Source: Faecalicoccus sp. (GTDB lineage: Bacteria; Bacillota_I; Bacilli_A; Erysipelotrichales; Erysipelotrichaceae). From it: a stretch of 12,990 nucleotides of DNA. The stretch spans positions 1 through 12,990 of the forward strand of contig JAGAWH010000043.1 of the NCBI GenBank assembly GCA_017941505.1, given 5' to 3'. The notes beneath the pieces are model-generated. The model saw nothing but the letters and a program-made list of their open reading frames with translations, had not been told where the DNA came from and did no database searches. The position numbers and the translations under genes were made by a program. The first letter of the stretch is position 1. Every line of letters begins with the position of its first letter. Positions 213-12,990 of this stretch are shown here, one piece after another.

Positions 213-1153
213 AATAATTTAACGATATCCGAGTAATAAGTATAACGGTCATCGACAACTCCCAGAGCTTCCTGGGCAATGGCGCGTGATTTTTCACGGT
301 CTACATCCGCATATACTTTCGCAAAGCGATAGTAGATGTAATCCTTCAACTGGTTCTCACGAAGGATATAGCTGTAGTTAGAATCACCTAAACGATAATC
401 ACCATGAACAATATACAGATCGGCAACATCCATCTGTGCACGGTTTTCATTAGATTCATATAAATCAGTAAACTGTGATAATACGGCATAGATGAAGTTT
501 TCATAATATTTCACATCGTCATATTGCCAGTTCTTTAAAACAACTAAGGCAACATCCATGAACTTGTTTACAAATTCAGTAGGATCCACTTTCAATAATG
601 ACTTCATTTCAGCCATTGTATGAATATCTTTTCTTTGAGCAATCATAAGTACACGCTTGATAATTTCAAATTGTGCCTTATACTCATCGTTATTTTCAAC
701 AGCGTCATCTTTGATTTCATAAGCTACATGTGCCTTGATATCCCTGGCAAGATCCGCAAAATCGCTGGCCTTAATATCCATCGTATCGGCAATCTTCTTA
801 ACAAGAACTTCAACTAAATCTGCATCATAACCATCTTCATCAAAAGTATGTTTTGAAACTTCAGCTTCATTGTCCTTAACAATTTTTGCAGCTACTTTTT
901 TCAAATCTGAGTTATCCAATAGTAATGATGCATATTGATCATAACCCATGTTAATACCCATTGCGCGTGCCATATCAATACATGTATCTAAAGAGAACTG
1001 GTTATACTGATTAATCTTCTGGTCATCAACCTTCTTAGCTGTTGACTTTTTCGGTGCCGCTTTCTTCGCAGCCGGCTTTTTAGCAGTCGTCTTTTTTACT
1101 GTTTTTTCCTCTGTTTTAGCGCTTTCTTCTTTAATCACTTTTTTAGCAGGCAT
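203..1153 (-). CDS. Unrecognised protein with histone H1-like lysine tail
   Basis: This 316-residue protein matches no family I recognise. Residues 1-46 are extremely rich in Lys, Ala and Thr. Pairs of lysine recur every five residues (20-21, 25-26, 30-31, 35-36, 40-41), with units such as KKPAA, KKAAP and KKSTA. This resembles the C-terminal tails of eukaryotic histone H1 and the lysine tails of some bacterial HU proteins, which bind DNA without sequence specificity. Residues 50-316 look like a folded, mainly helical acidic domain with many Asp, Tyr and Lys and no membrane segment or visible catalytic motif. The ATG at 1153 is preferred because AAGGAGGG lies 11 bases upstream; a TTG three codons earlier sits too close to it. 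A TATAAT (1184-1189) lies upstream and a terminator overlaps the end, so it is probably transcribed alone. Nucleic-acid or polyanion binding is inference from the tail. Confidence 0.85.
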   Translation of the reverse strand: MPAKKVIKEESAKTEEKTVKKTTAKKPAAKKAAPKKSTAKKVDDQKINQYNQFSLDTCIDMARAMGINMGYDQYASLLLDNSDLKKVAAKIVKDNEAEVSKHTFDEDGYDADLVEVLVKKIADTMDIKASDFADLARDIKAHVAYEIKDDAVENNDEYKAQFEIIKRVLMIAQRKDIHTMAEMKSLLKVDPTEFVNKFMDVALVVLKNWQYDDVKYYENFIYAVLSQFTDLYESNENRAQMDVADLYIVHGDYRLGDSNYSYILRENQLKDYIYYRFAKVYADVDREKSRAIAQEALGVVDDRYTYYSDIVKLLED

Positions 1154-1183
1154 AATACTCAAAGCCCTCCTTAAACAAGTTAG

Positions 1184-1189
1184 ATTATA
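1184..1189 (-). promoter_or_regulatory. -10 box for the lysine-tailed protein gene
   Basis: A consensus TATAAT on the minus strand lies 30 bases upstream of the ATG at 1153, in the divergent region shared with htrA. I see no good -35 at 16-18 bases from it, so the promoter may be weak or factor-dependent. Confidence 0.45.
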
Positions 1190-1269
1190 TCACTTATTTT
1201 ATTTTTTTCATATCTTAGACCAATAAAAATCAATATTTTTCATTTTTTTTGCGATTTCACACAAAATCT

Positions 1270-1301
1270 AATTGTTTTAACACACAATTCGAGAATATAA
1301 T
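1270..1301 (+). promoter_or_regulatory. htrA promoter with small inverted repeat
   Basis: TATAAT at 1296-1301 has TTGTTT at 1272-1277 (18-bp spacer). An inverted repeat AATTGT-N8-ACAATT (1270-1275 and 1284-1289) covers the -35, where a repressor could bind. A second partial repeat, GAATA-N6-TATTC, straddles the -10. HtrA genes in Firmicutes are commonly stress-controlled, for example by CssRS in Bacillus; which regulator acts here cannot be read from the sequence. Confidence 0.45.
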
Positions 1302-1331
1302 ACTATTCGAAATCATGAAAAGGGGGTTTTT

Positions 1332-2471
1332 ATGCCAAATAATCAAACACCACCGGAATTTAAAGCACGGAAGAAAAAAAGTCGTGTCGGTGCTTTAATC
1401 GCAGGTGCACTTGCGACAATCCTTTTATCAGGAGCCATTGGTTATGGCTGTGCTAAATTTGCGATCAATCAGTCCATTTCCACTTCCAATGGAAATGGTG
1501 TAACCATCGTCCAGCAGACCGGTAACGCATCCGGCAGTGCGACAACTGTTGAAGATGTCAGCGATGTAGCCGCAAAATGCGGACCATCTGTTGTAGAAAT
1601 CATCGTTGAAAAAACACAGAACGATCAATGGTTCGGTCAATATACAGCAGCCGGTGCCGGCTCAGGAGTGATCATCAGCGAGGATGGATACATCGTCACC
1701 AATAACCACGTTATTGCCGATGCGACCTCCATCGTTGTAAGAACGACAGAAGGAACAGAATATGCTGCCAATCTTGTCGGAACCGATGTTGATTCCGATA
1801 TTGCGGTAATCAAAATTGATGCGAAAAACTTAACCGCAGCAGCCTTCGGTGATTCCGATTCCTTAAAGGTAGGAAATCCTGCCATTGTAATCGGAAACCC
1901 ATTAGGTATGTTAGGTGGTACAGTTACAACCGGAATTATTTCTTCTTTAGACCGTCAGCTTACCATTGACGGTGTAACGATGACACTACTTCAAACCGAT
2001 GCTGCCATTAACCCGGGTAACTCCGGAGGAGGCTTATTTGACACCAACGGAAATCTGATTGGAATTGTGAACGCCAAGACCAGCCAGGAAGGTATTGAAG
2101 GCTTAGGTTTTGCGATTCCGATCAACAGCGCTATTGATATCATCAATGAATTAATGACCAATGGTGAAGTAACAACACGTCCGGCATTAAATGTATCGCT
2201 TTACGATCATAACGCTTCCAGCTACTACATGAGCTCTAAAGAAGAGGCCGGTGTATACATCGTTCAGATTGTACCGGGTGGAGCAGCGGATGAAGCCGGC
2301 TTACAGACAAACGACCGCATTATCTCCGTAGATGGCACTAAGGTCATGACAGCTTCCGAAGTCAAGGCAGTCCTTTATAAACATAAAGTTGGCGACACCA
2401 TTGAAATCGTCGTTGTTCGAGATGGCGAAGAAAAGAGCTTCCAAGTTACTCTGCATTCGCAATCGCAATAA
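1332..2471 (+). CDS. htrA: HtrA/DegP-type membrane-anchored serine protease
   Basis: The 379-residue protein is a quality-control protease that degrades misfolded or damaged proteins at the outer face of the membrane. Residues 1-18 are basic, 19-45 form a single membrane anchor, and a Ser/Gly/Asn linker follows to about 72. The trypsin-like domain (about 75-275) shows the complete triad: H126 in NNHVIAD, D156 in SDIAVIK and S231 in NPGNSGGGLF. One PDZ domain follows (about 285-375), including GGAADEAGLQTNDRI. This is the usual Gram-positive HtrA layout of an anchor with a single PDZ. The ATG has AGGGGG seven bases upstream. It is the only plus-strand gene in the left half and ends in a terminator shared with the convergent phosphoesterase gene. 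The family and active site are clear; the substrates are unknown. Confidence 0.96.
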   Translation: MPNNQTPPEFKARKKKSRVGALIAGALATILLSGAIGYGCAKFAINQSISTSNGNGVTIVQQTGNASGSATTVEDVSDVAAKCGPSVVEIIVEKTQNDQWFGQYTAAGAGSGVIISEDGYIVTNNHVIADATSIVVRTTEGTEYAANLVGTDVDSDIAVIKIDAKNLTAAAFGDSDSLKVGNPAIVIGNPLGMLGGTVTTGIISSLDRQLTIDGVTMTLLQTDAAINPGNSGGGLFDTNGNLIGIVNAKTSQEGIEGLGFAIPINSAIDIINELMTNGEVTTRPALNVSLYDHNASSYYMSSKEEAGVYIVQIVPGGAADEAGLQTNDRIISVDGTKVMTASEVKAVLYKHKVGDTIEIVVVRDGEEKSFQVTLHSQSQ

Positions 2472-2472
2472 A

Positions 2473-2495
2473 AAACAGGTTTATTCAACCTGTTT
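2473..2495. terminator. Shared terminator of htrA and the phosphoesterase gene
   Basis: AAACAGGTT (2473-2481) pairs perfectly with AACCTGTTT (2487-2495) around a five-base loop. On the minus strand it is followed by six T, giving a good terminator. On the plus strand only TTTCC follows, so it is weaker for htrA. The stop codon of the minus-strand gene (2483-2481) lies within the hairpin. Confidence 0.85.
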
Positions 2496-3209
2496 CCAAT
2501 CTTCGATACGAATGATTTTATTAAAGAGGCAGACAGCAGGTCTGCCTTTTTTAGCGTAGTGGACTTCATCTTCATGATAATGTCCATGAAACCAAACCTT
2601 ATAATCCAGTTTATTATTTACTTCTTCCAAAAAAGAATGAATATCTACATATCCTTCACCATAGGGTTCCATTTTCCATTCATAGCGGTCGGTAAAATGA
2701 GAAGACCCATAAATATCATGCGTTATGACATAATCAACTTTCCAATCTGCAGCTTCCAGAACGTTTTTGGCATGACTTACTTCCTCGATGGTAGGAAGCT
2801 CATCCTTCCACCAGGAGCGATGCTCTGTTCGATATTGATAGTCATGCGAGAAGCCTCCGCCAAATACGAAAATTTTCTGACCATCAATGGAAAAGATTTC
2901 ACCGCGCATCAAATGATAAATATTCTCGCGAATGCGGTGTACCTTTCCCCCATGCCATGTTTCGATTGGATATGTATTTAACTCATCAAAATTTTCATGA
3001 TTTCCATCAATAAACAAAGTTGTCCACGGTAAGGAATTGATCCATTTCAACCAGAACCTGTCCCCGTCGGCCGCATCCCAAATACATCCAAAATCACCGG
3101 CTATGATGACATAATCATCCCGTGTGAGATTTCTTCCTTCCACAAATTCATCCGGATTGATCGTATGGATATCCAGTTCTCTATGCGTATCACCGGTTAT
3201 ATAAATCAT
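2481..3209 (-). CDS. Calcineurin-like metallophosphoesterase
   Basis: The 242-residue cytoplasmic enzyme has the full motif set of the calcineurin-like phosphoesterase superfamily, which binds two metal ions: GDTH (6-9), GDFG (38-41), GNHE (69-72), HD (164-165) and GHYH (209-212). There is no signal peptide or membrane segment. Substrates in this superfamily range from nucleotides to phosphoproteins and nucleic acids, and the sequence does not settle which applies. The ATG at 3209 is chosen because AGAGGTG lies eight bases upstream and the protein then begins directly with MIYITGDTH, as family members do; a TTG six codons earlier overlaps that ribosome binding site. It follows fakA after a terminator, so it may depend on read-through or its own undetected promoter. 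Confidence 0.9.
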   Translation of the reverse strand: MIYITGDTHRELDIHTINPDEFVEGRNLTRDDYVIIAGDFGCIWDAADGDRFWLKWINSLPWTTLFIDGNHENFDELNTYPIETWHGGKVHRIRENIYHLMRGEIFSIDGQKIFVFGGGFSHDYQYRTEHRSWWKDELPTIEEVSHAKNVLEAADWKVDYVITHDIYGSSHFTDRYEWKMEPYGEGYVDIHSFLEEVNNKLDYKVWFHGHYHEDEVHYAKKGRPAVCLFNKIIRIEDWKQVE

Positions 3210-3225
3210 ATTTTCAACACCTCTC

Positions 3226-3254
3226 AAAAAAGGAAAAACCTGATTGCTCAGGCT
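3226..3254 (-). terminator. Terminator of the yloU-fakA operon
   Basis: On the minus strand AGCCTGA pairs with TCAGGTT (one G-T pair) around a GCAA tetraloop, starting at the base after the fakA stop codon. It is followed by TTTTTCCTTTTTT. The T-rich end runs to just before the ribosome binding site of the phosphoesterase gene. Confidence 0.8.
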
Positions 3255-4994
3255 TTATTCAACACCGATGATAAATGAATAAACCGGTTGTTTTCCTTCG
3301 TGAATTTCTACTTCTGCATCACTGTTATCTTCAATATAAGCGGCAAGCTCTTCTGCCTGTTCCTTGGTTGCGTCTACACCATAAATCAGTGTAACGAGTT
3401 CGGAATCCTCATCTAACATGGTATCTAACAATTTTCTTGTTGTATCCATGCAGTCAGGTAACGATACGGAAATGCCTTTTCCGAAAATACCCATGTATTC
3501 GCCCTTCTTGATTTCCAAACCTTCATAGGTTGTATCCTTGATGGCATAGGTAACTTCACCGGATTTTACATTGGCAATCGCATCTTCCATTTCGGAAAGG
3601 TTTTCATCAATATCCTCATCCGGATTGAACATTACACAGGCTGAAAGTCCCTGTGGAATCGTCTTTGTCGGTAAGATATGGATATCTCTATCCTCTACTA
3701 CCTGAGCTGCCTGTTGGGCTGCAAGGATGATATTGGAGTTATTTGGAAGAATGATGATATGATCTGCATTCATCTGTTCGATGGCACCCACAAAATCTTC
3801 CGTACTTGGGTTCATCGTCTGACCGCCGCTGATTACCTTGTCTGCTCTTAATTCATAGAACATGTTGGTAATACCTTCACCCGGAGCCACGGTAATAATA
3901 CCGTATTTTTTATGCTCAGCGGAAGCCGGACGGATATTTGAAGAGTTTCCTGCTTTGGCAATAGCTGATAAATTCTGTGCTTCTTTCGGTCCATCTAATG
4001 GCTGTGCACCGGAATGTACAGCTGCACTTTCATGGAATTTTTCCGCTTCGGCAACCATGATCACATCATGCTGCTCCTGCATATTTTCAATTTTTAATTT
4101 CGCAAAACGACCCTGACGTTTGGCCATCTTGATAGCTGTCTGAGGCTCAAGGGTATGTACATGAACCTTAACTAAATCTTCATCCTGTACGCATACGATC
4201 GAATTACCGATTGTGGCAAGTTCATCACGGAATTGAACTTCTGAGAAGTTACGCATACCGCGCTCACTTAAACGCAGAATAAACTCAGTACAGAAACCGT
4301 ATTCGCTTTCTCCGTTATCGATCTTAGCCTGTGCCATTTCGCCGGCTTCTAAAGTTTCAGAGCGCTCAATCGGCTCACCTTTAAGAGCAGCTAAGAAGCC
4401 TTCCAAAATGACACATAAACCCTTTCCGCCGCTGTCGACTACGCCAACTTCTGCAAGTACCGGTAAAAGTTCCGGTGTACGCATAAGGGATTCATTGGCC
4501 TCATCCACCATTTTCTGCATAACAAGTACGCAATCCGTAATTTCCTCAGTAACGGTATATGCATAAGTATAATCCGCAGCTTCGCGGACAACCGTTAAAA
4601 TCGTTCCTTCGACCGGACGCATTACGGCGCGATAAGCTACACGGGAACCGTTTACCAATGCGTTTGCTAACTGCATCGCATCGAGTGTATCCTCATCTTT
4701 TACAGATTGATAAAAACCTCTAAAAATCTGCGATGTGATAACACCGGAGTTACCGCGGGCTCCCATCAATAAGCCGCGGGATAATACTTTGGCAACCTTT
4801 CCAACAGAGTTTTCATTGCACTCTAAAGCAGATTTAACACCATTGGTAAAAGTTAAATTCATATTTGTACCCGTATCACCATCCGGTACCGGGAAAACAT
4901 TCAACGCATCCACCTGTGCGGCATGATTAGCCAGGTTATTCATACCTGAGCTGATCATCTGTTTAAATAACTGTACATCGATCGTTTCTACCAT
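3255..4994 (-). CDS. fakA: FakA/YloV family fatty acid kinase, DhaL-type
   Basis: FakA phosphorylates fatty acids held by a FakB (DegV-type) partner, feeding exogenous fatty acids into phospholipid synthesis. The 579-residue protein has the normal family length and order. The N-terminal DhaL-like ATP-binding domain (1-200) contains VPDGDTGTNMN (D38 and D40 bind Mg in the family), GARGNSG (78-84) and DSGGKGL (187-193). The middle domain has YGFCTE (C235) and VKVHVHT (H278, H280), matching the Cys/His/His zinc site reported for S. aureus FakA. The C-terminal domain (about 355-579) includes GEGITNMFYELRAD and the PNNSNI loop. AGGGAG lies six bases before the ATG, and the gene follows yloU by 15 bases, the pairing conserved across Firmicutes. 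No fakB is visible in the window. Confidence 0.95.
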   Translation of the reverse strand: MVETIDVQLFKQMISSGMNNLANHAAQVDALNVFPVPDGDTGTNMNLTFTNGVKSALECNENSVGKVAKVLSRGLLMGARGNSGVITSQIFRGFYQSVKDEDTLDAMQLANALVNGSRVAYRAVMRPVEGTILTVVREAADYTYAYTVTEEITDCVLVMQKMVDEANESLMRTPELLPVLAEVGVVDSGGKGLCVILEGFLAALKGEPIERSETLEAGEMAQAKIDNGESEYGFCTEFILRLSERGMRNFSEVQFRDELATIGNSIVCVQDEDLVKVHVHTLEPQTAIKMAKRQGRFAKLKIENMQEQHDVIMVAEAEKFHESAAVHSGAQPLDGPKEAQNLSAIAKAGNSSNIRPASAEHKKYGIITVAPGEGITNMFYELRADKVISGGQTMNPSTEDFVGAIEQMNADHIIILPNNSNIILAAQQAAQVVEDRDIHILPTKTIPQGLSACVMFNPDEDIDENLSEMEDAIANVKSGEVTYAIKDTTYEGLEIKKGEYMGIFGKGISVSLPDCMDTTRKLLDTMLDEDSELVTLIYGVDATKEQAEELAAYIEDNSDAEVEIHEGKQPVYSFIIGVE

Positions 4995-5009
4995 ATAATT
5001 CTCCCTTTA

Positions 5010-5369
5010 CTACTTTTCCGGACGAACGCCCTGAACATAGATATTTACGGAGCGACATTTTACTTCCAGAGATTTTTCTACAACATATTTAACGCGCTTC
5101 TGTGCTTCTTTGACAACTTCACTTAATTTAATACCCTGCAGGGCAATAATATATAAATCTAAGATGATTCCATCTTCGGATTGATTTACAACTACACCGC
5201 GGGAATAGTTATCTTTTTTTAATAACTCAGCCCATCCATCACGTACTGTCTTCTGAGAGGACATACCAATGACGCCATAACACTCTGTGATTGCGCCGCC
5301 TGCTAAGCTGGATATCGCTTCCAGCGAAATGGAAATACTTCCGAATTCTGTGGATTTATTAATCGACAT
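5010..5369 (-). CDS. yloU: Asp23/YloU family protein
   Basis: The 119-residue protein belongs to the Asp23 family (alkaline shock protein 23-like) of small cytoplasmic proteins common in Gram-positives. In B. subtilis the homologue YloU is encoded just before yloV, the same order as here. Family signatures are the N-terminal GSISISLEAISSLAGGAITECYG region, then GIILDLYIIALQGIKLSEV and the C-terminal VNIYVQGV. The ATG at 5369 is preferred over an earlier in-frame ATG at 5402, because AGGAGG lies seven bases upstream and the family begins near here; the earlier start would also lie upstream of the TATAAT (5399-5394). The molecular role is not settled; links to envelope stress are reported for the family. 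Confidence 0.93.
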   Translation of the reverse strand: MSINKSTEFGSISISLEAISSLAGGAITECYGVIGMSSQKTVRDGWAELLKKDNYSRGVVVNQSEDGIILDLYIIALQGIKLSEVVKEAQKRVKYVVEKSLEVKCRSVNIYVQGVRPEK

Positions 5370-5393
5370 AACAATTCCTCCTGATTTATTTCG

Positions 5394-5422
5394 ATTATAC
5401 ATGAATTATTTTTTCAATACAA
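5394..5422 (-). promoter_or_regulatory. Promoter of the yloU-fakA operon
   Basis: On the minus strand TATAAT (5399-5394) has TTGTAT (5422-5417) upstream with a 17-base spacer. It lies between the divIB stop and yloU, about 25 bases before the start codon. No terminator is obvious after divIB, so read-through from the wall cluster could add to this promoter. Confidence 0.55.
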
Positions 5423-5458
5423 ATTGTACGATTGCACATACTACTCTCTTTAATACGA

Positions 5459-6556
5459 TTAACTGCCTGCTTCTACAAAATTACCATACTCATCCCAGAC
5501 ATAAATGGTTCCGTAGTCATCCATATACTGCCCGGTGTTTGGATTATACTGCATGCCCATATCCTCATCGTAGACCCATTCGCTTTCTGCCTGCGGCTCT
5601 TCTTGCGGCACTTCTTCTTGTGGCTGTTCTTGAGGTTCAGCTTCTTCTTCCGGCTGTTCTTCCGACTGCTCTTCCGGTTGGTCCTGGGCTTCTTGTTCAG
5701 CCTGCTGGGCAGCGGCCTGTTCAGCCTTGGCATCGGCAGCTGATACGATTTCAGAACAATCTACTTTCATAATCGTTGAGTTATTGGCATCGAGTAAAAG
5801 ACATACCGATTGACCGGATAACTGCGTTAACATCGCCTGATATTTGGCAATCATCACAACATCATTCAGACTGGTATAGATGGTATTTCCATCCTGCATG
5901 GTCATACGGATCATGTTGTCATCATAGGTCGATTGAAAAGGTACCATTTCGGCAATTTTTTCAATCACTTCTTTTGTCAGCTGTTCACTGTTTTTCTTAA
6001 AGACATCCGCAATAGCTTTCAGCTGTTTCTTATTAAAGCCATTAAGAAGCGGATAGTGGATAATGCTCTTTAAATACTGTTCTTCAACGGGAATCTTCTC
6101 ATTATCGATTGTGAGAAGATAGTTCTGGTTTTCTTCCACAAAATATCCGATTACCGTTTTTTCGGTGATTTTTAATGTGATCTTACCACCGACTTTGGAT
6201 ACCTCAGCACTTTCAATTAACGGTTCTTTTTCCAGTTTGTTTCGGATTGAGAAGCTCGGTGTCAAAAACATGCGTGTATCCATATCCAAACCGGCAATCG
6301 AATAAATTTCCTGGTCGGTATAATAATAATTACCTGTACATGCCAATACCTTTACTTTGGAATCGGGGGAAAGATAATAAACAAATAAACTTCCTAAAAT
6401 CAATCCGATAAGAGCATAGATGTAGCACATACGAAGATTGAAGTAATCACGACGCTTCGTTCTTTTCTTTGGAGTAGAAGGCTGACCGGCCGCCTGTTTG
6501 CGCATTCGAGACAGGCGCTTACGTAATTGTAGCCCCTTTCTTCTCGATGACTTCAT
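5459..6556 (-). CDS. divIB: Cell division protein FtsQ/DivIB with long acidic tail
   Basis: DivIB/FtsQ is a single-pass divisome protein that forms the FtsQLB (DivIB-DivIC-FtsL) complex at the septum. The 365-residue protein has a very basic cytoplasmic start (1-38), one membrane helix (about 43-62), a POTRA domain (about 66-133, KVKVLACTGNYYYTDQEI to KITLKITEKTVIGYF) and a beta domain (about 134-268). It then departs from the usual plan: residues 274-325 are almost only Glu, Gln, Pro and Ala, and 326-365 form a Tyr/Asp/Trp-rich end containing YNPNTGQY and YGTIYVWDEYGNF. Both would be outside the cell. It starts three bases after the murB stop with only a poor ribosome binding site (GGTGTGG), so translation is probably coupled to murB. 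No clear terminator follows. The identity is firm; the role of the tail is unknown. Confidence 0.9.
   Translation of the reverse strand: MKSSRRKGLQLRKRLSRMRKQAAGQPSTPKKRTKRRDYFNLRMCYIYALIGLILGSLFVYYLSPDSKVKVLACTGNYYYTDQEIYSIAGLDMDTRMFLTPSFSIRNKLEKEPLIESAEVSKVGGKITLKITEKTVIGYFVEENQNYLLTIDNEKIPVEEQYLKSIIHYPLLNGFNKKQLKAIADVFKKNSEQLTKEVIEKIAEMVPFQSTYDDNMIRMTMQDGNTIYTSLNDVVMIAKYQAMLTQLSGQSVCLLLDANNSTIMKVDCSEIVSAADAKAEQAAAQQAEQEAQDQPEEQSEEQPEEEAEPQEQPQEEVPQEEPQAESEWVYDEDMGMQYNPNTGQYMDDYGTIYVWDEYGNFVEAGS
5582..5737 (-). repeat. Low-complexity Glu/Gln/Pro coding repeat in divIB
   Basis: This stretch encodes residues 274-325 of DivIB. The DNA shows degenerate 12-base units, for example at 5651-5662, 5663-5674 and 5675-5686 (plus strand CGGCTGTTCTTC, CGACTGCTCTTC, CGGTTGGTCCTG). 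Such tracts can change length by slippage, so the tail may vary between strains. Confidence 0.7.
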
Positions 6557-6559
6557 GGA

Positions 6560-7459
6560 CTACCACACCAATCTTTCCACTTCTGTAATCAATTCGATGT
6601 TGTAATGTTTCTTAGCTAATTCCTGGATTAATTCAATCAATTCTATAACATCTTTCGCTTTGGCATTCCCTGTTTCATTGACAATAAAATTACAGTGTTT
6701 TTCCGAAATCTTAGCACCGCCGATCTGCTTGCCCCTTAGGCCTAATTCTTCAATCAAGCGCCATGCAGGAACGATATCCGGGTTGCGGAACACGCTGCCG
6801 GCACACGGCATATCAAGAGGCTGGGCTGACATACGCCTATGGCGTCTGGAATCCATTAAAGTACGAATTTCCATCTGGTCACCTTTTTGAAGACGGAAAC
6901 AGCCGGCAAGAATGATCCAATCCCGATGGGATTGAAAAATCGAATGACGGTAATCATAATCGAGTTCTGATTTTTCAAACCATTCGATCTTGCCATCAAT
7001 CAAAACGTAAACAGACTCTAAGATATTCGAAAGATTGGATTTATAGGCTCCGGCATTCATAAAAAGGCCGCCGCCAATAGAACCGGGAATACCAGAGGCA
7101 AATTCTAATCCCGAAAAGGAACGTTTCATTGCCTCAACTGACAGATTTATAATAGAACAGCCTGCCTGCGCAATCAGACGGCCGTCTTCTTCAAAATAAA
7201 AACGATTTAACGTTTTATCCAGATTGATAATGGCACCATTGAAATCTTCGTCCGAGCATAAGATATTGGAACCTCTTCCCAAAACATGGTAAGGAACTTC
7301 ATTCTCTTTTAAGATTTCCAGAATGCGGACAAGCGCCACTTCGTTTTCCGGATAGATATAATACGCAACACTCCCCCCAATATGGTATGTTGTGTGTTTT
7401 TTCATGGATTCGTTTGTTAAGACGGTCCCGTAAACCGCCAATTGTTCTTCCAAACGCAT
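6560..7459 (-). CDS. murB: UDP-N-acetylenolpyruvoylglucosamine reductase MurB
   Basis: MurB is the FAD enzyme that reduces UDP-GlcNAc-enolpyruvate with NADPH to UDP-MurNAc, the second step of peptidoglycan precursor synthesis. The 299 residues have the expected length. FAD-binding motifs are HTTYHIGGSV (22-31), GRGSNILCSD (61-70) and SGIPGSIGGGLFMNAGAY (122-139). Catalytic residues are R171 in YRHS, S222 in CAGSVFRNP and E293 in TEVERL. The compact form after the Ser motif fits the type II enzymes of Gram-positives. I chose the ATG at 7459, one base after the murG stop codon and with GGGGGG six bases upstream; an in-frame ATG ten codons earlier (7489) overlaps the end of murG and is less likely. 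It sits between murG and divIB in an operon. Confidence 0.96.
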   Translation of the reverse strand: MRLEEQLAVYGTVLTNESMKKHTTYHIGGSVAYYIYPENEVALVRILEILKENEVPYHVLGRGSNILCSDEDFNGAIINLDKTLNRFYFEEDGRLIAQAGCSIINLSVEAMKRSFSGLEFASGIPGSIGGGLFMNAGAYKSNLSNILESVYVLIDGKIEWFEKSELDYDYRHSIFQSHRDWIILAGCFRLQKGDQMEIRTLMDSRRHRRMSAQPLDMPCAGSVFRNPDIVPAWRLIEELGLRGKQIGGAKISEKHCNFIVNETGNAKAKDVIELIELIQELAKKHYNIELITEVERLVW

Positions 7460-7460
7460 A

Positions 7461-8543
7461 CTATTTCCCCCCGTTAACAAGACCTTCACAAAGCTCTATA
7501 ATGTCATATGCAGCATTTGGTTTACCCAGCTTTTTAGCGTTGTTGGAGACAATCTCCATCCGTGCAGGATTGGCAAAAAGCGCAAGGATAGCCTTCTGCA
7601 GACTTTGGGCATTCAGGTCTTTTTCTTCGATCATTAATGCGGCATCCTGATCAACCAGAACGCTGGCATTGTAGAACTGATGGTTGTTGGCAACATATGG
7701 ACTTGGAATCAAAATTGATGGAATTCCTAAGGAAGTTACCTCAGCCAGAGTTGTTGCCCCTGCCCGGCAGATCATACCATCAATATGTCCGTAAATACGC
7801 ATGCTGTCCACATAACCAACTACATGAATATTTTCTTCATCATCAAATAGATGAATATCGTCTAAATTATCCTTCCCGCAGACATATAAAAACTGCAGTC
7901 CGAAATCCACCCCTTTTAACGCATCCTTCATCAATTGATTGACACTGCTGGAACCAAGCGAGCCCATCATGATCAAAATAGTCCGCTTATTTAGATCCAG
8001 TCCCATGGAAGTAAAATATTCCTCATCAAAAACAGCCTCTTTTACAAGCGTTGCCCGGGGATTTCCCAGAAGCGATACTTTATCAGCCGGGAAAGTTTCA
8101 GTGCATTTTTCATAACATGTAACAATCGCACTCACCCTGTTCATAACCAGATGATTGGCCTTGCCGACAATGGAATTCTGTTCATGAATAACCGTAGGAA
8201 TCCCCATTCTACTGGCCGTTAAAATCACCGGTGCACTTACATATCCACCAAATCCAATCGCCACATCCGGCTGGAATTCTTCTAAATACTGACGTGCTTT
8301 TTTTAACGCTAAAAGCATCTGACCTACAGCTCTTCCCTTTCTAAGGACAGAACCCACGAGTCCAGATGTATGCAGAGGCTTAAATTCATAACCGCAGGAA
8401 GGCACTAACTGTGCCTCCATACGATCATCGTTGCCGATAAAAATAATTTCATTAGAAGGATCTTTCTGCATAAATTTATCCGCCAAGGCGATGGCAGGAT
8501 AAATATGCCCTCCCGTTCCTCCTGTCACAATACATATTTTCAT
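7461..8543 (-). CDS. murG: Lipid II glycosyltransferase MurG
   Basis: MurG transfers GlcNAc from UDP-GlcNAc to lipid I, making lipid II at the inner face of the membrane. The 360-residue length is typical. The glycine loop GGTGGHIYPA (8-17) opens the N-terminal domain, followed by GFGGYVSAP (98-106) and HEQNSIVGKANH (120-131). The C-terminal donor-binding domain has GSLGSSSVN (194-202), CRAGATTLAEVTSLGIPSIL (259-278) and NNHQFYNA (286-293). The ATG at 8543 is fixed by the family N-terminus, yet no Shine-Dalgarno precedes it; only AGG two bases away. A TGTTATACT extended -10 (8564-8556) would give a very short leader. murB begins one base after the stop codon, so the two are surely cotranscribed. 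Confidence 0.97.
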   Translation of the reverse strand: MKICIVTGGTGGHIYPAIALADKFMQKDPSNEIIFIGNDDRMEAQLVPSCGYEFKPLHTSGLVGSVLRKGRAVGQMLLALKKARQYLEEFQPDVAIGFGGYVSAPVILTASRMGIPTVIHEQNSIVGKANHLVMNRVSAIVTCYEKCTETFPADKVSLLGNPRATLVKEAVFDEEYFTSMGLDLNKRTILIMMGSLGSSSVNQLMKDALKGVDFGLQFLYVCGKDNLDDIHLFDDEENIHVVGYVDSMRIYGHIDGMICRAGATTLAEVTSLGIPSILIPSPYVANNHQFYNASVLVDQDAALMIEEKDLNAQSLQKAILALFANPARMEIVSNNAKKLGKPNAAYDIIELCEGLVNGGK

Positions 8544-8547
8544 AACC

Positions 8548-8581
8548 TAAAAAAAAGTATAACACAAACCTTAAAAAGGTT
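8548..8581 (-). terminator. Weak terminator-like hairpin between srtB and murG
   Basis: AACCTT-TTT-AAGGTT (8581-8567 on the minus strand) forms a six-pair stem. The run of eight T (8555-8548) starts 11 bases after the stem rather than directly, so termination is likely partial at best. The hairpin overlaps the upstream part of the possible murG promoter. Confidence 0.35.
8556..8564 (-). promoter_or_regulatory. Extended -10 in front of murG
   Basis: TG-T-TATACT on the minus strand ends 12 bases before the murG start codon. Transcription from it would begin about 6 bases before the ATG, giving a nearly leaderless mRNA. No clear -35 is visible at the usual distance. The alternative is that murG is expressed by read-through from srtB. 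Confidence 0.35.
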
Positions 8582-8586
8582 AAATC

Positions 8587-9321
8587 TTAATCAACAATGT
8601 TAACCGGGCCGAGCATAGGCTGCAGTTTTCCGGTCAATACAAAACGGTGGTCACTGTTAAAACCATAATCCAAATCGCAGGTAGAAATGGTCACAAAACG
8701 TCCCTCACTTAAATCCACATTCCCTGCATAGGTGGTCTGCGCCATCATATCTGCCATCGTCTGGTCTCTAAAATCACCAAAGCTGGTGGTATAGAAGGCA
8801 GATCCATCCAGTGTAGCCGCAAAGAAGGCAACCTGGCATTCATAATTCTGCTCCGGTGTTAATAAATAGAACGTTTGATGGGTATCAAAGAAATTTTTGT
8901 CCAGATAATTTCTTAGATCCGTACACATTCCGCCTCCTTCTACGGAATGACCGTAGATGATCGAGTTATCATCCGCAAAACCGGGATTGGCCGCATAATC
9001 AAGGAAGAAAGCACCCATTTCGTTATATTCACCGGAAATCGTGTGATTTAAATAGAATGAGTTATTATCCCCCTGTACAACAGGATAGGATACATTGCAT
9101 CCCGGGATATAGAGCCATGCCACAATATCCGGACTCTGTGCCTGTAAGGCTGCCCAATCCGGTTCCAGGGTTTTACTCTCCGTAACTACATTCTGTGATA
9201 GAATTTCAACTTCTTTCTCAACTGCCTGCTTTGTAGAGTAAATTTGCCACAGGTTATAGGCACTGTAGGCAAATACACCGATACATACGGCAAGCAGGAT
9301 TCTATATATCCATTTTTTCAT
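8587..9321 (-). CDS. srtB: Class B sortase
   Basis: Sortases are membrane transpeptidases that cut a sorting signal in secreted proteins and attach them to peptidoglycan or pilin subunits. The 244-residue protein has MKKWIYR followed by a membrane anchor (about 7-27) and the catalytic domain outside. The triad is H125 in YGHS, C215 in ISTC and R226 in DHRFVLTG. EMGAFFLDY and the long segment between the catalytic His and Cys are typical of class B. AGGAGG (9346-9341) lies 19 bases from the ATG, too far for normal initiation, but a 15-base palindrome fills most of the gap. The ATG is kept because it gives the expected Lys-Lys then anchor start. No classical substrate with a C-terminal sorting signal is encoded in the window. 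It lies upstream of murG-murB-divIB, separated by a weak hairpin. Confidence 0.93.
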   Translation of the reverse strand: MKKWIYRILLAVCIGVFAYSAYNLWQIYSTKQAVEKEVEILSQNVVTESKTLEPDWAALQAQSPDIVAWLYIPGCNVSYPVVQGDNNSFYLNHTISGEYNEMGAFFLDYAANPGFADDNSIIYGHSVEGGGMCTDLRNYLDKNFFDTHQTFYLLTPEQNYECQVAFFAATLDGSAFYTTSFGDFRDQTMADMMAQTTYAGNVDLSEGRFVTISTCDLDYGFNSDHRFVLTGKLQPMLGPVNIVD

Positions 9322-9336
9322 GTTTATAATATAAAC
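9322..9336. promoter_or_regulatory. Palindrome between srtB Shine-Dalgarno and ATG
   Basis: GTTTATA-A-TATAAAC abuts the srtB start codon. AGGAGG lies four bases beyond it. In mRNA the palindrome could fold and bring the Shine-Dalgarno close to the ATG. It may instead be an operator; its plus strand also contains TATAAT (9325-9330), but no matching -35 is seen. Confidence 0.6.
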
Positions 9337-9404
9337 TTATCCTCCTTAATTTACAACTCTTTGATTTTAAGTTCATTCATTCCTTTTATTTATTCACATT
9401 TTGA

Positions 9405-9412
9405 ATTATATT
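9405..9412. promoter_or_regulatory. Possible overlapping -10 boxes for srtB and the HNH gene
   Basis: On the minus strand TATAAT (9410-9405) would serve srtB, leaving a leader of about 75 bases. On the plus strand TATATT (9407-9412) would serve the HNH gene 27 bases downstream. Neither has a good -35, so both assignments are tentative. The 117-base divergent region holds no other feature I can support. Confidence 0.3.
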
Positions 9413-9438
9413 TAAAGCATCAAAAGAAAGGTCTTTTT

Positions 9439-10419
9439 ATGAATAAGCACTACCTTAAAATCATCATCATGGTTCTCAATGAACTATCCTTACAATATAA
9501 TGACCGCATGGAACTGCAGGAAGCAACTATTGAAACGGCTTATATGAAAGATAATCACATCGTAGGGAATATATTGATTCAAGCCATGGATTTATTAACA
9601 GAGCTTGAAGCATACGAATGGATCGACGATGTACTGGATTTCTTTCCTCCTGCTGTCATCTATTCCCACTCCGCATCCAACTCCCAGCTTGAAGCATTAG
9701 CTGCTTTTGAACTTGTCTGTCACAGTCATACCAACCGCAAGATCATCAAAGCCGGCTATTTACCGGGAGGTGCTGCCAGAGAAATTATGCGAAACTCTAT
9801 CCTTCTCAAAGATAATATGATCAATCCTACATTAGAACCGTATTGCCGGCAGATTCTGGAAGAGATGGATAGAGATGAAATCATCTCCGATACGTTGGCA
9901 GTTATGTATACAAGAGAGCTCTATAAGGTGCAGCATATCGTAGAATATCGCAACGAAGATAAAGAACCGATTGCATTTCGCAATATGGACTTTATTATGA
10001 AAAACCTGCCGCATAAAGGAATTCCTGCCAACAGAGATACCGCCAAAAATCTGCAGTCCTACTACAAGGATACCCAGATGCATGAATTTGACCATCAATG
10101 CCCGATCTGCGGAGCAAATATCCCGGCCATGTTGATCGCATCCCATATTAAGCCATTCAGAGACTGTGCCCATATTTTTGAATGTGCCGATCATAATAAC
10201 GGATTGTTATTATGCCGCAATCACGACTATCTTTTCGATCAGGGTTATTTTTCTCTTAATGAGGATGGAACACTGCTTTATTCCGAACCATTAAAAAAAA
10301 TCGAGAACTTCAATTCCCGATTTAATCTGAAAGATAATTATGTTCTTCCCAAAGTATACCAAACAGAAAACCGCATGAAGTATCTGCAATATCATCGTGC
10401 AAATATTCTGAAAAAGTAA
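9439..10419 (+). CDS. HNH endonuclease-domain protein with unknown N-terminal region
   Basis: The 326-residue protein ends in an HNH nuclease domain of the type with CPICG (221-225), ASHIKPF (234-240), a DHNNGLLLC core (251-259) and NHDYLFDQGYFS (261-272). The paired cysteines, the SH motif and the NGLLLC-LFDxG signature match HNH_2-like domains that cut DNA with a metal ion. Residues 1-215 are mostly helical and acidic and match no family I recognise; they may bind DNA or a partner. The ATG at 9439 has GAAAGG seven bases upstream; extending further left would run into srtB without a ribosome binding site. It stands alone on the plus strand, with no methylase, helicase or toxin-antitoxin partner beside it. 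It could be a solitary modification-dependent nuclease or defence gene; that is inference. Confidence 0.85.
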   Translation: MNKHYLKIIIMVLNELSLQYNDRMELQEATIETAYMKDNHIVGNILIQAMDLLTELEAYEWIDDVLDFFPPAVIYSHSASNSQLEALAAFELVCHSHTNRKIIKAGYLPGGAAREIMRNSILLKDNMINPTLEPYCRQILEEMDRDEIISDTLAVMYTRELYKVQHIVEYRNEDKEPIAFRNMDFIMKNLPHKGIPANRDTAKNLQSYYKDTQMHEFDHQCPICGANIPAMLIASHIKPFRDCAHIFECADHNNGLLLCRNHDYLFDQGYFSLNEDGTLLYSEPLKKIENFNSRFNLKDNYVLPKVYQTENRMKYLQYHRANILKK

Positions 10420-10447
10420 AAAGTCCCGAAAGGGACTTTCTATTTTT
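10420..10447. terminator. Bidirectional terminator between the HNH gene and EIIB
   Basis: AAAGTCCC-GAAA-GGGACTTT (10420-10439) is a perfect eight-pair stem with a GAAA loop. It starts at the base after the HNH stop codon. CTATTTTT follows on the plus strand. On the minus strand the stem's own TTT leads into ACTTTTT, so it can serve both converging genes. Confidence 0.85.
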
Positions 10448-10922
10448 ATAATCCTAATTTTGCGAGATCTTCAACATCACTGGAAGGAACACGCTGAATA
10501 GTCAGTTCAATTCCACGATCTTTCATTTTGCGGAAAATTTCTACATCGGCATCATCCACTGCAACCGAAGAGCCAACCTGGCGCTTTCCGGAATTCATTG
10601 CCATATTACCGATGTTCACTTTTGTGATCGGAACTCCGCCTTCAATTAATGTGAGGGCATCCTGTGGATTTTCTACGATGATAAAAATCTTCTGATCCGG
10701 GGAAGCTTTATCGATAATATCAATTGTCTTTTGAAGGCTGAAGAAACGGGTAGCTACTCCGCTTGGAGCTGCCATGTTCATAATTCCCTGTTTAAATGAA
10801 TCCGCAGCCACTGCATCATTGGCAATTAATAATAAATTTGCTCCCAGACTTTTTGTCCATTGTGAGCCAATCTGACCATGCATCAAACGCTCGTCAATTC
10901 TTGTTAATAAAACGTTAGCCAT
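10446..10922 (-). CDS. agaV: PTS EIIB, mannose family, AgaV-like, stand-alone
   Basis: EIIB of the mannose/fructose/sorbose PTS family takes phosphate from EIIA and passes it to the sugar entering through EIIC/EIID. The 158 residues match the family length. The phosphorylated histidine is H15 in RIDERLMHGQI, followed by VEN and GGVPITKVNIGNM motifs. By eye it is closest to AgaV of the N-acetylgalactosamine/galactosamine system, so the symbol is by resemblance and the substrate is not proven. It has its own AAGGAG site 12 bases upstream of the ATG, its own -10 and a terminator on each side, and no EIIC or EIID follows. It must therefore work with membrane subunits encoded elsewhere. Confidence 0.92.
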   Translation of the reverse strand: MANVLLTRIDERLMHGQIGSQWTKSLGANLLLIANDAVAADSFKQGIMNMAAPSGVATRFFSLQKTIDIIDKASPDQKIFIIVENPQDALTLIEGGVPITKVNIGNMAMNSGKRQVGSSVAVDDADVEIFRKMKDRGIELTIQRVPSSDVEDLAKLGL

Positions 10923-10976
10923 AAAAGTAAAGATCTCCTTTCAATTTAAACCTATAACGTACTTCTTCTTACAACT

Positions 10977-10982
10977 ATTATA
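10977..10982 (-). promoter_or_regulatory. -10 box for the EIIB gene
   Basis: TATAAT on the minus strand lies 54 bases before the EIIB start codon and 39 bases after the HPr-LDH terminator. No convincing -35 is present at 16-18 bases. Together with the terminator upstream, it indicates that EIIB is a separate transcription unit. Confidence 0.5.
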
Positions 10983-11021
10983 TTAGGAAACAACCTTTTT
11001 TTCTACCGAAATTTTACACAG

Positions 11022-11052
11022 AAAAAAAGGCTTTTCAAAATCGAAAAGCCTT
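11022..11052 (-). terminator. Intrinsic terminator of the HPr-LDH gene
   Basis: On the minus strand AAGGCTTTTC (11052-11043) pairs perfectly with GAAAAGCCTT (11036-11027) around a six-base loop. At least five T follow (11026-11022). It is a strong, well-placed terminator 18 bases after the stop codon. Confidence 0.93.
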
Positions 11053-11070
11053 CTTAAAATTCAAATAAAA

Positions 11071-12372
11071 TTATTTAACTTCAGCCTGTCCGTAAGGGTT
11101 GCCTTCGTTGAAGTTACGGGCATTTTCCATAGTTACGGCAGCGATAGCCTGCAATGCTTCACGAGTGAAGAATGCCTGGTGGCTTGTTAAGATTAACTGT
11201 GGGAACATCATCAAACGTCCGGTGATTGCAGTCTGTAGAGGTTCGTCAGAACGGTCTGTATAAACGTTTGCATCTTCACCTTCATAAACGTCTAATGCAA
11301 CAGCGTGGAATTTGCCGGCCTTTAATGCAGAAATCAAAGCTTCTGTATCAATTAAGCCACCACGTGCAGTGTTAACTAACATTACATCGTCTTTCATCTT
11401 AGCGATTGCGTCTGCATCGATGATATGATATGTTCCACCATCACCCATGATTAACGGAGCATGTAAAGAGATTAAGTCAGCCTTTGCGAACAATTCATCT
11501 TTTGTTACGTAAGCACTTAATAATCCTTCGTCGATTAATCTCTGGTTAGGGAATGCGTCCCAACCGATAACGGTCATGCCAAATCCTTTACAGATGGCTG
11601 CCATACACTGACCGATACGTCCTGTACCAACGATACCAGCAACTTTGTTGTGGAGGTCTACACCTAATAATCCACTTAATGCGAAGTTGTTGTCTTTTAC
11701 TTTGAAGTAAGACTTGTGGATACGACGGTTAGCAGATGTAATGATTGTCATTGCATGTTCTGCAACTGCATATGGTGAGTAAGCAGGTACACGTAATACA
11801 GTGATTCCATATTCTTTTGCAGCCTGTAAATCAACGTTGTTGAATCCGGCGCAACGTAACAGAATTAAGCGAACGCCGCCATCGTGTAATACTTCAATTA
11901 CATCTCTTCCGCATTCGTCATTTACGAAGATACATACTGCATCGAAACCTTTAGCTAAGCCTGCAGTTTCAATAGTAAGACGAGAGTTGAAATACTTAAT
12001 GCTGGTGTTATAAGTTCCTTCACCACGTTCTTTAGCTAATTCGCTGAAGAAGATACGGTCGTAATCTTTTGTTCCGAAGAATGCAACTTTTAATACTTCA
12101 GTCTTCTTTGACTTCGGTGTCATTGTTTCAAATACAGATTTAATCTTTTCTGCACATGCTTCTTCATCTAAGCCGTCGCATGTAACTTCAACTGTCTGTC
12201 CCTTAGCTGCCTTAAGAGCTAAGATCTGAAGAACGTTATTACCTGCAGCTTCGATGCCATTGCATTTGAAAGTAGTCTGGCACTTGAATTCAACACAAGC
12301 CTGAGCTAATAAAGCAGCCGGGCGGGCATGAATTCCTAACGGATCAGTGATCACATAAGAAAAAGTTTTCAT
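11071..12372 (-). CDS. ldhA: HPr–D-lactate dehydrogenase fusion protein
   Basis: The 433-residue protein joins two enzymes of sugar fermentation. Residues 1-85 are an HPr domain, the small PTS phosphocarrier, with DPLGIHARPAALL giving H15 and R17 at the classical positions. Ser46, the HPr kinase site, is replaced by Asn (GNNVLQILALKAAKG). A short linker (about 86-93, PKSKKTEV) leads to a full NAD-dependent D-lactate dehydrogenase (94-433) close to E. coli LdhA. It shows CIFVNDE, RCAGFNNVDL, the Rossmann loop GTGRIG (249-254) with D272 for NADH, R337 in NTARGG, E364 in DVYEGE and H398 in TSHQAFFTREA. These are the substrate-binding Arg and the Glu/His catalytic pair. AGGAGG lies 12 bases before the ATG. 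The gene has its own promoter and terminator and lies between EIIA and EIIB genes. It may couple PTS phosphate flow to pyruvate reduction; this is inference. Confidence 0.95.
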   Translation of the reverse strand: MKTFSYVITDPLGIHARPAALLAQACVEFKCQTTFKCNGIEAAGNNVLQILALKAAKGQTVEVTCDGLDEEACAEKIKSVFETMTPKSKKTEVLKVAFFGTKDYDRIFFSELAKERGEGTYNTSIKYFNSRLTIETAGLAKGFDAVCIFVNDECGRDVIEVLHDGGVRLILLRCAGFNNVDLQAAKEYGITVLRVPAYSPYAVAEHAMTIITSANRRIHKSYFKVKDNNFALSGLLGVDLHNKVAGIVGTGRIGQCMAAICKGFGMTVIGWDAFPNQRLIDEGLLSAYVTKDELFAKADLISLHAPLIMGDGGTYHIIDADAIAKMKDDVMLVNTARGGLIDTEALISALKAGKFHAVALDVYEGEDANVYTDRSDEPLQTAITGRLMMFPQLILTSHQAFFTREALQAIAAVTMENARNFNEGNPYGQAEVK

Positions 12373-12443
12373 AATAGTTTTTTGCCTCCTTTAATAAAAA
12401 CTACAATATGTGCAATACTTTTTTATGAGTATTCTCTTCTCAT

Positions 12444-12469
12444 ATAATACCAAAATATAGTGGTATTAT
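12444..12469. promoter_or_regulatory. Inverted repeat, likely operator of the HPr-LDH gene
   Basis: Plus-strand ATAATACCA (12444-12452) and TGGTATTAT (12461-12469) are perfect inverted arms with an eight-base spacer. One arm coincides with the extended -10 and the other reaches the -35, the arrangement expected of a repressor site. It does not resemble the Rex box (TTGTGAAN...TTCACAA type) often found at ldh genes. The cognate regulator is not visible in the window. Confidence 0.6.
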
Positions 12470-12472
12470 CTA
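12444..12472 (-). promoter_or_regulatory. Promoter of the HPr-LDH gene
   Basis: On the minus strand an extended -10, TG-G-TATTAT (12452-12444), has TAGATA (12472-12467) 17 bases upstream as a modest -35. Transcription would start near 12437, leaving a leader of about 65 bases. The core promoter is almost fully covered by the inverted repeat at 12444-12469. Confidence 0.55.
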
Positions 12473-12491
12473 TTAAAAAATCAGAAATACG

Positions 12492-12506
12492 GCGTTTTTT
12501 AAACGC
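12492..12506 (-). terminator. Weak hairpin after the EIIA gene
   Basis: GCGTTT-AAA-AAACGC on the minus strand is a perfect six-pair stem beginning nine bases after the EIIA stop. A run of six T appears only about 10 bases later, so it is a poor terminator. The overlap with the cre-like sequence means the symmetry could be incidental. Confidence 0.3.
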
Positions 12507-12512
12507 TTTCAT
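12497..12512 (-). promoter_or_regulatory. cre-like catabolite-control site
   Basis: ATGAAAGCGTTTAAAA on the minus strand matches the CcpA cre consensus WTGNNARCGNWWWCAW at all but one position (A for the conserved C). Its centre lies about 67 bases upstream of the predicted HPr-LDH transcription start, a position where CcpA activates overflow genes such as ackA in Bacillus. It also lies just after the EIIA stop codon and overlaps the hairpin at 12492-12506. Confidence 0.5.
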
Positions 12513-12514
12513 AC

Positions 12515-12943
12515 TTAAATACCGTCTGTCGGAATATCCTGTACAATCGGCTGTAATTCAAACCGACGTACGGAATCCTTGGCTACTTCTACCGCCTGGG
12601 CTGCTAAGGCATGAACATCACCTGTCATAGCACGCTGGAAGTTAATTTCTAAGAGCATTCCCATATTGGTTCCGGCTACCACTTCTACATTTCCTTTTGG
12701 ATATCCTAACTCTACACTGCTTTTAAACGGTGAGCCGCCGGCTAAATCGGCCATGATCAAAATCGCATCGCAATCTGCCAGATCATCCATTGCCTTGGTT
12801 AACTTTTTTTCTAAGATTTCCACCGAATCGCTCAGTTCAAAATCCACCGCTCTGAAATGTTCAGGAACGCCGCCGATCACATGTAATCCGGCTTCCATGC
12901 CGGTCGCAAAATGTCCGTGACCCGTAACAATTAAACCAATCAT
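12515..12943 (-). CDS. agaF: PTS EIIA, mannose family, AgaF-like
   Basis: EIIA accepts phosphate from HPr and hands it to EIIB in mannose/fructose/sorbose-family sugar uptake systems. The 142-residue cytoplasmic protein starts MIGLIVTGHGHFATGME, with H9 at the phosphorylation site. It continues with ILIMADLAGGSPF and VEVVAGTNMGMLLE, both family signatures. By eye it is closest to AgaF of the N-acetylgalactosamine system; the substrate is not proven. The ATG at 12943 is chosen over an in-frame start 14 codons earlier, since only this one gives the family N-terminus and has GAGG nine bases upstream. It follows the preceding gene by one base, so it belongs to an operon extending beyond the window. 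Its downstream neighbour is the HPr-LDH fusion. Confidence 0.93.
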   Translation of the reverse strand: MIGLIVTGHGHFATGMEAGLHVIGGVPEHFRAVDFELSDSVEILEKKLTKAMDDLADCDAILIMADLAGGSPFKSSVELGYPKGNVEVVAGTNMGMLLEINFQRAMTGDVHALAAQAVEVAKDSVRRFELQPIVQDIPTDGI

Positions 12944-12944
12944 A

Positions 12945-12990
12945 TTAAAGAGCCTCGATGATGTAGTTTGTCTTGAAGGTTTCACCCGGT
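12945..12990 (-). CDS. C-terminal end of an unidentified gene (partial)
   Basis: The last 14 codons (PGETFKTNYIIEAL) and a TAA stop of a gene running in from the right edge are visible, one base before the EIIA start. The ribosome binding site for EIIA lies inside it, so the two are probably cotranscribed and perhaps translationally coupled. In related operons this position is often a PTS subunit or a sugar-phosphate enzyme. The fragment is too short and too hydrophilic to identify. Confidence 0.6.
   Translation of the reverse strand, partial: PGETFKTNYIIEAL

Follow-up and report, generated by a model that had tools for sequence, protein, structure and literature searches.

Enzyme I phosphorylates HPr reversibly, to an extent that depends on the PEP/pyruvate ratio; half of the pyruvate derived from a PTS hexose arises at Enzyme I, and pyruvate is at the same time the substrate of lactate dehydrogenase (LDH). 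To our knowledge, the control of metabolic enzymes by the PTS has been described mainly as non-covalent binding in trans. Passages of two reviews relate that E. coli HPr activates the pyruvate kinase PykF and has PfkB, NagB and Adk as further interaction partners, the last being inhibited by P~HPr (PMC10305011, PMC8167557), contacts through which the state of the PTS is proposed to act at or near the pyruvate node. HPr also occurs in longer chains, and its fusions to EIIA and EI are described in a survey of the phylogeny of PTS phosphoryl-transfer proteins (PMC2405797), while for the sigma-54 activators of Clostridiales another survey names PTS-HPr as one of the regulatory domains at the N-terminus (PMC6615313).

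The gene described here lies in a 12,990-nucleotide stretch of DNA (the window) and joins an HPr domain to an LdhA-type D-2-hydroxyacid dehydrogenase. Like the multiphosphoryl transfer proteins (FruB/FPr, DhaM-type, EIIA-HPr-EI), it holds HPr in a multidomain chain; their partners are PTS relay domains, whereas in this chain HPr is joined to a metabolic enzyme, and Pfam finds PTS-HPr and 2-Hacid_dh domains only, with no EIIA or EI domain in the protein. Like the HPr-sigma-54 proteins, it carries HPr at the N-terminus of a non-PTS effector, which in their case is a PAS/AAA+ activator and not a fermentation enzyme. The E. coli contacts involve separate proteins in trans, whereas the fused HPr is tethered to its enzyme one-to-one and would presumably regulate it within the chain. 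Crh and the D/E15 HPr-like proteins are HPr paralogues apparently specialised away from sugar transport, as the fused domain also appears to be, and it is their mirror image: the sampled D/E15 forms keep Ser46 (9/9) and lack H15, whereas the fusion keeps H15 and has lost Ser46. With HPr (PtsH) and other PF00381 proteins the fused domain has in common the family models, H15, R17 and the GIHARPA motif; it differs in being joined to an enzyme, in the change of Ser46 to Asn or Asp, and in a docking face less basic than that of the sampled free HPrs with H15 and R17. The enzyme part is homologous over its whole length to LdhA proteins of solved structure (5z21, 5z20, 5z1z, 4cuj) and retains their catalytic Arg, Glu and His; it differs from them by its N-terminal HPr and by scores below the NCBIfam D-LDH cut-offs (best 25 of 29 models).

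The first-pass annotation of this DNA knew of no described HPr-LDH fusion. For the literature this stands: in open-licence PMC we recognised no paper describing one, the word dehydrogenase was not found in the main text of the PTS survey (PMC2405797), and the word phosphocarrier was not found in a 2HADH classification paper (PMC6303947), whose displayed HPr-like hits are hydroxypyruvate reductase names. For the databases it does not, for three of the 120 homologues listed below (P0023, P0043 and P0046) bear the NCBI product name 'fused HPr family phosphocarrier protein/2-hydroxyacid dehydrogenase', and the architecture is already recognised by annotation. Beyond that annotation, the present analysis adds the loss of Ser46, the less basic docking face, the lack of a conserved PTS operon and the occurrence of HPr elsewhere as an N-terminal domain in sensor position. 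A stable one-to-one fusion of HPr and enzyme at the pyruvate node would open the question of whether the PTS phosphorylation state governs fermentation flux to a direct test, using a single protein and its H15A variant; if such control is real, sugar uptake may set lactate output directly in some bacteria of the gut and rumen.

Domain layout of the fused gene

The 433-codon frame runs on the minus strand from 12372 to 11071 with zero internal stops (Table 1). The first-pass annotation had proposed one uninterrupted frame holding a complete HPr domain with H15 and R17 and a complete LdhA with its catalytic residues; its coordinates prove exact, the strand that it left unstated is minus, and both domains are borne out by the family models. 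PTS-HPr (PF00381) matches residues 3-82 with 75.7 bits (cut-off 23), and the NCBIfam HPr model TIGR01003 passes with 69.3 bits (cut-off 47.9). In the remainder of the chain, 2-Hacid_dh (PF00389) matches residues 124-426 with 104.5 bits and 2-Hacid_dh_C (PF02826) residues 209-400 with 154.2 bits. The dehydrogenase part of the window protein contains the nucleotide motif G249-G254 with D272, in which the glycines and the acidic residue after strand 2 presumably bind the nucleotide, together with R337, E364 and H398, which we take, by analogy with the dehydrogenase family, to be catalytic. None of the best 25 of the 29 curated NCBIfam D-LDH models reaches its cut-off on the fusion; NF009127 (175.8 against 579) and NF006374 (169.3 against 356) are both narrow models.

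Table 1. Features of the fusion gene and its immediate surroundings (window coordinates)
Feature	Position	Strand	Basis or remark
HPr-D-lactate dehydrogenase fusion	11071..12372	-	433 aa, single reading frame; sequence and Pfam
HPr domain, residues 1-82	12127..12372	-	Pfam PF00381, TIGR01003, AF2, conservation
H15 codon	12330-12328	-	within HPr domain
R17 codon	12324-12322	-	within HPr domain
N46 codon (replaces Ser46)	12237-12235	-	within HPr domain
Linker, residues 83-93	12094..12126	-	11 residues in 210/219 distinct homologues
LdhA-type D-2-hydroxyacid dehydrogenase, residues 94-433	11074..12093	-	PF00389/PF02826, similarity to 5z21
Ribosome-binding region AAAGGAGG	12373..12392	-	Shine-Dalgarno-like, upstream of the fusion ATG; read directly from sequence
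Intrinsic-terminator-like hairpin, 14 pairs	11024..11055	-	just 3' of the fusion stop
Mannose-family EIIA (AgaF-like), upstream neighbour	12515..12943	-	PF03610; NF040761 122.3 bits, below cut-off 130
Mannose/sorbose-family EIIB, downstream neighbour	10446..10922	-	PF03830; NF007288 190.5 bits, cut-off 180

Among solved proteins the closest relative by sequence is 5z21, a D-lactate dehydrogenase of Fusobacterium nucleatum (E 2.4e-94, 45% identity), which is also the top Foldseek match; the superposition is poor (rmsd 6.7 over 339 columns), and the structural search adds no more than that the LDH part matches D-LDHs. The nearest solved proteins to the enzyme part are fermentative-type D-LDHs, those of Fusobacterium, Pseudomonas, E. 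coli and Salmonella among them, and the nearest to residues 1-88 are HPrs; the closest D-LDH relatives are tetramers, some of them allosteric. By these similarities the enzyme part would probably make D-lactate from pyruvate and NADH. An AF2 model built on an alignment of 64 of 121 proteins (window included) has a mean pLDDT of 82, rising to 89-95 across residues 1-80, and a pTM of 0.72; as it comes without PAE, we do not interpret its domain arrangement.

Recurrence, conservation and spread

The same three domains (PF00381, PF00389 and PF02826) are carried by each of at least 120 database homologues (the best of 8000 scored), whose lengths range from 431 to 469 residues and whose identities range from 71 to 99%, and at all 80 genome loci considered, the best of 246 confirmed, the match to the query spans residue 1-4 to residue 432-433. 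Carriers among the 80 loci include isolates of Mitsuokella multacida, Floccifex porci, Selenomonas montiformis, Sharpea porci and Lactimicrobium massiliense. The nearest locus (L001, CACYBS010000135.1, from the rumen MAG RUG11795) has the same frame at 99% identity and flanking genes in common with the window; its label, Erysipelothrix rhusiopathiae, is perhaps only approximate at species level. The window sequence being possibly a metagenome record itself, a frameshift, a chimeric assembly or an annotation error might have joined two genes, yet the same HPr-LDH junction occurs in 219 distinct sequences from isolates and many independent MAGs, which rules such an artefact out for practical purposes and leaves it a vanishingly small probability. 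Since the architecture recurs across homologues, loci and isolates, the fusion is real and conserved, and two outcomes that would have told against the first-pass annotation, an assembly error and absence of the architecture from related genomes, are excluded.

Conservation was assessed on these 219 distinct fused sequences (out of 221 rows). H15 and R17 are invariant (219/219), as are R337, E364, H398, G251, G254 and D272, with G249 present in 217; position 46 holds N in 203 sequences, D in 15 and S in just one. At 14 loci M14 replaces I14 with H15 intact, and the helix-2 residues V47, L48 and I50 are conserved. Over 23871 pairs the HPr domains have a mean pairwise identity of 0.59, the linkers 0.31 and the LDH domains 0.79, individual HPr pairs falling as low as 31%; the median dN/dS (164 non-independent pairs with dS of 0.1-1.0) stands at 0.093 in HPr and 0.052 in LDH, and purifying selection acts on both domains. 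Since these residues are invariant and dN/dS is low, the HPr domain is retained together with its phosphorylation site and the dehydrogenase together with its catalytic centre, and the invariance of H15 and R17 would fit PEP/Enzyme I-dependent phosphorylation. Separate translation of the LDH from an internal start is unlikely, 173 of the 219 sequences having no Met at 78-100 in a count that leaves GTG and TTG aside; the window protein itself has M84.

The distribution is patchy across genomes labelled Erysipelotrichaceae, Lachnospiraceae and Selenomonadaceae, and carriers are, by their record titles, largely rumen and gut bacteria. Counting matches at E <= 1e-130 with the centre genome included, 63 of 272 genomes match in the family of an Erysipelotrichaceae isolate (G018; the family also includes G001, the genome of L001), 61 of them near the whole query and two partially at contig ends; 11 of 299 match in the family of a Lachnospiraceae isolate (G011); the order of G002 contributes 3 of 392 genomes and the class of G018 contributes 11 of 395, while the match table of a looser search gives a full-length match in 2 of 398 genomes for the phylum of the Mitsuokella genome (G012). 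A quick tree of 88 rows (81 fused and 7 free dehydrogenases) clusters the window and L001 with seven Lachnospiraceae/Clostridia sequences, nine in all (98, starred), so that L001, although its genome stands in the G018 family group, has a fusion that groups with Lachnospiraceae-labelled sequences. On the same tree the Lachnospiraceae/Clostridia labels need 7 changes and the Erysipelotrichia labels 6, at least 5 of each being forced by starred branches; these label changes point to a spread of the fusion between families by horizontal transfer, so far as MAG labels are trustworthy. The nearly constant length of the linker would fit a single fusion event. The most divergent fusion found (L127 in G932, 61% identity) is also the only one of the 219 with Ser46, and is possibly closer to the ancestral fusion.

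In the window the fusion gene starts 142 bases after the EIIA gene and ends 148 bases before the EIIB gene, all three on the minus strand, and no EIIC or EIID gene was seen in the window beside this mannose/galactosamine-type pair. Among the 80 loci the two PTS neighbours recur in L001 only and are missing from the other 79, with more than 2 kb of flank available upstream at 68 loci and downstream at 65; the commonest neighbour cluster reaches 9 of the 67 loci tabulated, 13 of the 80 being left out where a simple gene picker did not recover the fusion. A conserved PTS operon is thereby ruled out: the PTS neighbours are a local feature of the window, and the surroundings of the fusion gene are not conserved from locus to locus. 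L001 has an aldose 1-epimerase gene upstream of its EIIA gene, and the C-terminus of this epimerase reaches the window end. On the other side, a gene for an HNH_2 endonuclease-domain protein (9244-10419, plus strand) converges on the EIIB gene, and both strands bear terminator-like hairpins near 10417-10442; the interval 10400-12990 contains 6 terminator-like sites against a mean of 1.9 in shuffles. Farther away, MurG-like, MurB, FtsQ-type POTRA protein, Asp23 and FakA-like genes stand in a row at 3255-8543 on the minus strand, a cell-wall/division cluster adjoining a fatty-acid-kinase-like gene.

Fused and free HPr domains in the carriers

All of the 22 fusion-bearing genomes searched have a match to Enzyme I and at least one further HPr frame unfused to LDH, ruling out the fusion as the sole HPr of any of them. 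HprK matches were obtained in 19 of the 22, with none in Mitsuokella (G012), Selenomonas montiformis (G016) and G022; the B. subtilis control gave none either, although B. subtilis has HprK, so that these three absences are not secure.

Forty free HPrs, hand-picked and mostly stronger, were taken from the 92 non-fusion matches in these genomes for comparison. At position 46 they carry S (25) or K (15) and never the N or D of the fused set, so that the HprK site Ser46 is absent from 218 of 219 fused and 15 of 40 free HPrs and is not family-defining. Nine of the 40 carry D or E at position 15, which indicates that H15 can be lost, though it is not lost in the fusion. A quick HPr tree (midpoint-rooted and built on 96 columns, which are few) sets 38 fused HPrs beside the K46-type free HPrs with a support of 91, unstarred. 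With this grouping, and with Ser46 present in L127, the loss of Ser46 is not established as an invention of the fusion and may be inherited.

The docking face was defined by a residue list based on known complexes, and on this list its mean charge is +1.7 in the fused HPrs against +6.0 in the free H15/K46 type (n=15), +3.5 in H15/R17/S46 (n=10), +2.8 in H15 without R17 (n=6) and +1.4 in D/E15 (n=9). The fused face is thus less basic than that of the free HPrs with H15 and R17 and nearest to that of the non-carrier D/E15 kind, which is not phosphorylatable at position 15. Positions 24, 27, 28, 45 and 46 are mostly lysine in the K46 type and mostly neutral or acidic in the fused set, in which a basic K57 has been gained in 189 of 219. 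Q24, C26, N46 and V47 are near-invariant in the fused set and rare in the sampled H15/K46 and H15/R17/S46 HPrs, though Q24 is found in 9/9 D/E15 forms and V47 in 4/6 of those lacking R17. The free H15/K46 HPrs (L083, L085, L088, L094, L096, L097, L106, L107, L111) and the Crh-like D/E15-S46 HPrs (L086, L089, L090, L091, L110, L112, L113, L116, L118) look as though catalytic and regulatory tasks were divided between them.

As regards lactate formation, the fusion is the sole match to the query at E <= 1e-40 in 18 of the 22 genomes, the other four having a second match of 32-35% identity, with stops in one case. L-LDH-type matches exceed 230 bits in ten genomes (five above the model cut-off), are weak in three more and are absent at E <= 0.001 in nine. 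The fusion thus often ranks first among the candidates for making lactate. In the genus of Sharpea porci it is the sole match at E <= 1e-40 in both genomes searched. According to Kamke et al. (PMC5069950), a D-lactate dehydrogenase gene of Sharpea azabuensis, which we infer to be the fusion, is highly expressed in low-methane sheep; in the same source the total reads mapped to that Sharpea genome rose about equally, from 937 to 11372 RPM, and the rise of the D-LDH gene is therefore not specific regulation.

Possible roles of the fusion

With H15 and R17 kept, the HprK site dropped and a less basic face, the fused HPr looks more like a sensor than a carrier. We accordingly favour, with a probability of roughly 0.45, the view that the protein could be a fermentative D-LDH with an in-cis PTS sensor, in which phosphorylation of H15 by Enzyme I would tune the LDH. 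Enzyme I would reversibly phosphorylate H15 of the fused HPr from PEP; the phosphorylated fraction would read the PEP/pyruvate ratio together with PTS sugar flux, and the state of the tethered HPr would in turn tune the LDH, its active state being most likely that with dephospho-HPr, when sugar is flowing in and pyruvate is high. The HprK input would be bypassed because Ser46 is gone. Phosphorylation by Enzyme I, its effect on LDH, the direction of that effect and the D-lactate product are all steps that we infer. An extended version, held more tentatively, would make the protein a self-contained PEP/pyruvate-ratio sensor enzyme, in which the state of H15, shielded from HprK by the loss of Ser46, switches the D-LDH, and which wires PTS influx to lactate in rumen and gut Bacillota, having been passed horizontally between families.

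In favour of a sensor speak the retention of H15 and R17 in all 219 sequences despite a mean HPr identity of 59%, the match to Enzyme I in all 22 genomes, and the N or D at residue 46 in 218/219 fused domains against S or K in 40/40 free ones. Against it, a less basic docking face could make the domain a poorer substrate for Enzyme I; with a variable linker and an unconserved context, nothing outside the protein points to PTS control; and the AF2 model, lacking PAE, supports no claim of an HPr-LDH interface.

The same conserved residues would also suit a role in which HPr is a mere tag that binds Enzyme I or EI clusters and places the LDH where pyruvate is released, the more so as helix 2 (V47, L48, I50) is conserved with H15 and R17, Enzyme I is found in every one of the 22 genomes and, by the stoichiometry given at the outset, half of the PTS-hexose pyruvate is released at Enzyme I. 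Pyruvate, however, diffuses fast, a tag need not retain H15, and a face less basic than that of the H15/R17 free HPrs is the opposite of what a stronger Enzyme I tag would have; we regard such docking as rather unlikely. A similarly low likelihood attaches to the proposal that the domain is an additional general phosphocarrier whose fusion only couples HPr dosage to LDH dosage. Full conservation of the phosphorylation site agrees with that proposal, as does, indirectly, the possibility that the fused gene is well expressed in Sharpea (PMC5069950); the unfused HPr frames present in all 22 genomes and the less basic docking face run counter to it. Lastly, HPr might aid the folding or oligomerisation of LDH, with H15 and R17 kept for structure or for contact with LDH, and the near-invariant Q24, C26, N46 and V47 may form such an interface. 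Free LdhA enzymes nevertheless have solved structures without an HPr domain, phosphorylation accounts better for the fact that precisely the two phosphotransfer residues are invariant, and the occurrence of Q24 in the D/E15 forms and of V47 in the R17-less free HPrs weakens the case for an LDH-specific surface, making a structural module the least probable of these three.

The sensing role is further favoured because the LDH fusion is not alone in carrying HPr at the N-terminus of an effector from outside the PTS. The Mitsuokella multacida genome (G012) encodes, at L151:828-2510 on the plus strand, a 560-aa protein with HPr at residues 6-90, a PAS domain at 116-216, a sigma-54 interaction domain at 254-419 and a C-terminal helix-turn-helix, and its gene lies directly upstream of the free HPr and Enzyme I genes of that genome. 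In Selenomonas montiformis (G016) an HPr match falls in a similarly long frame of 567 aa.
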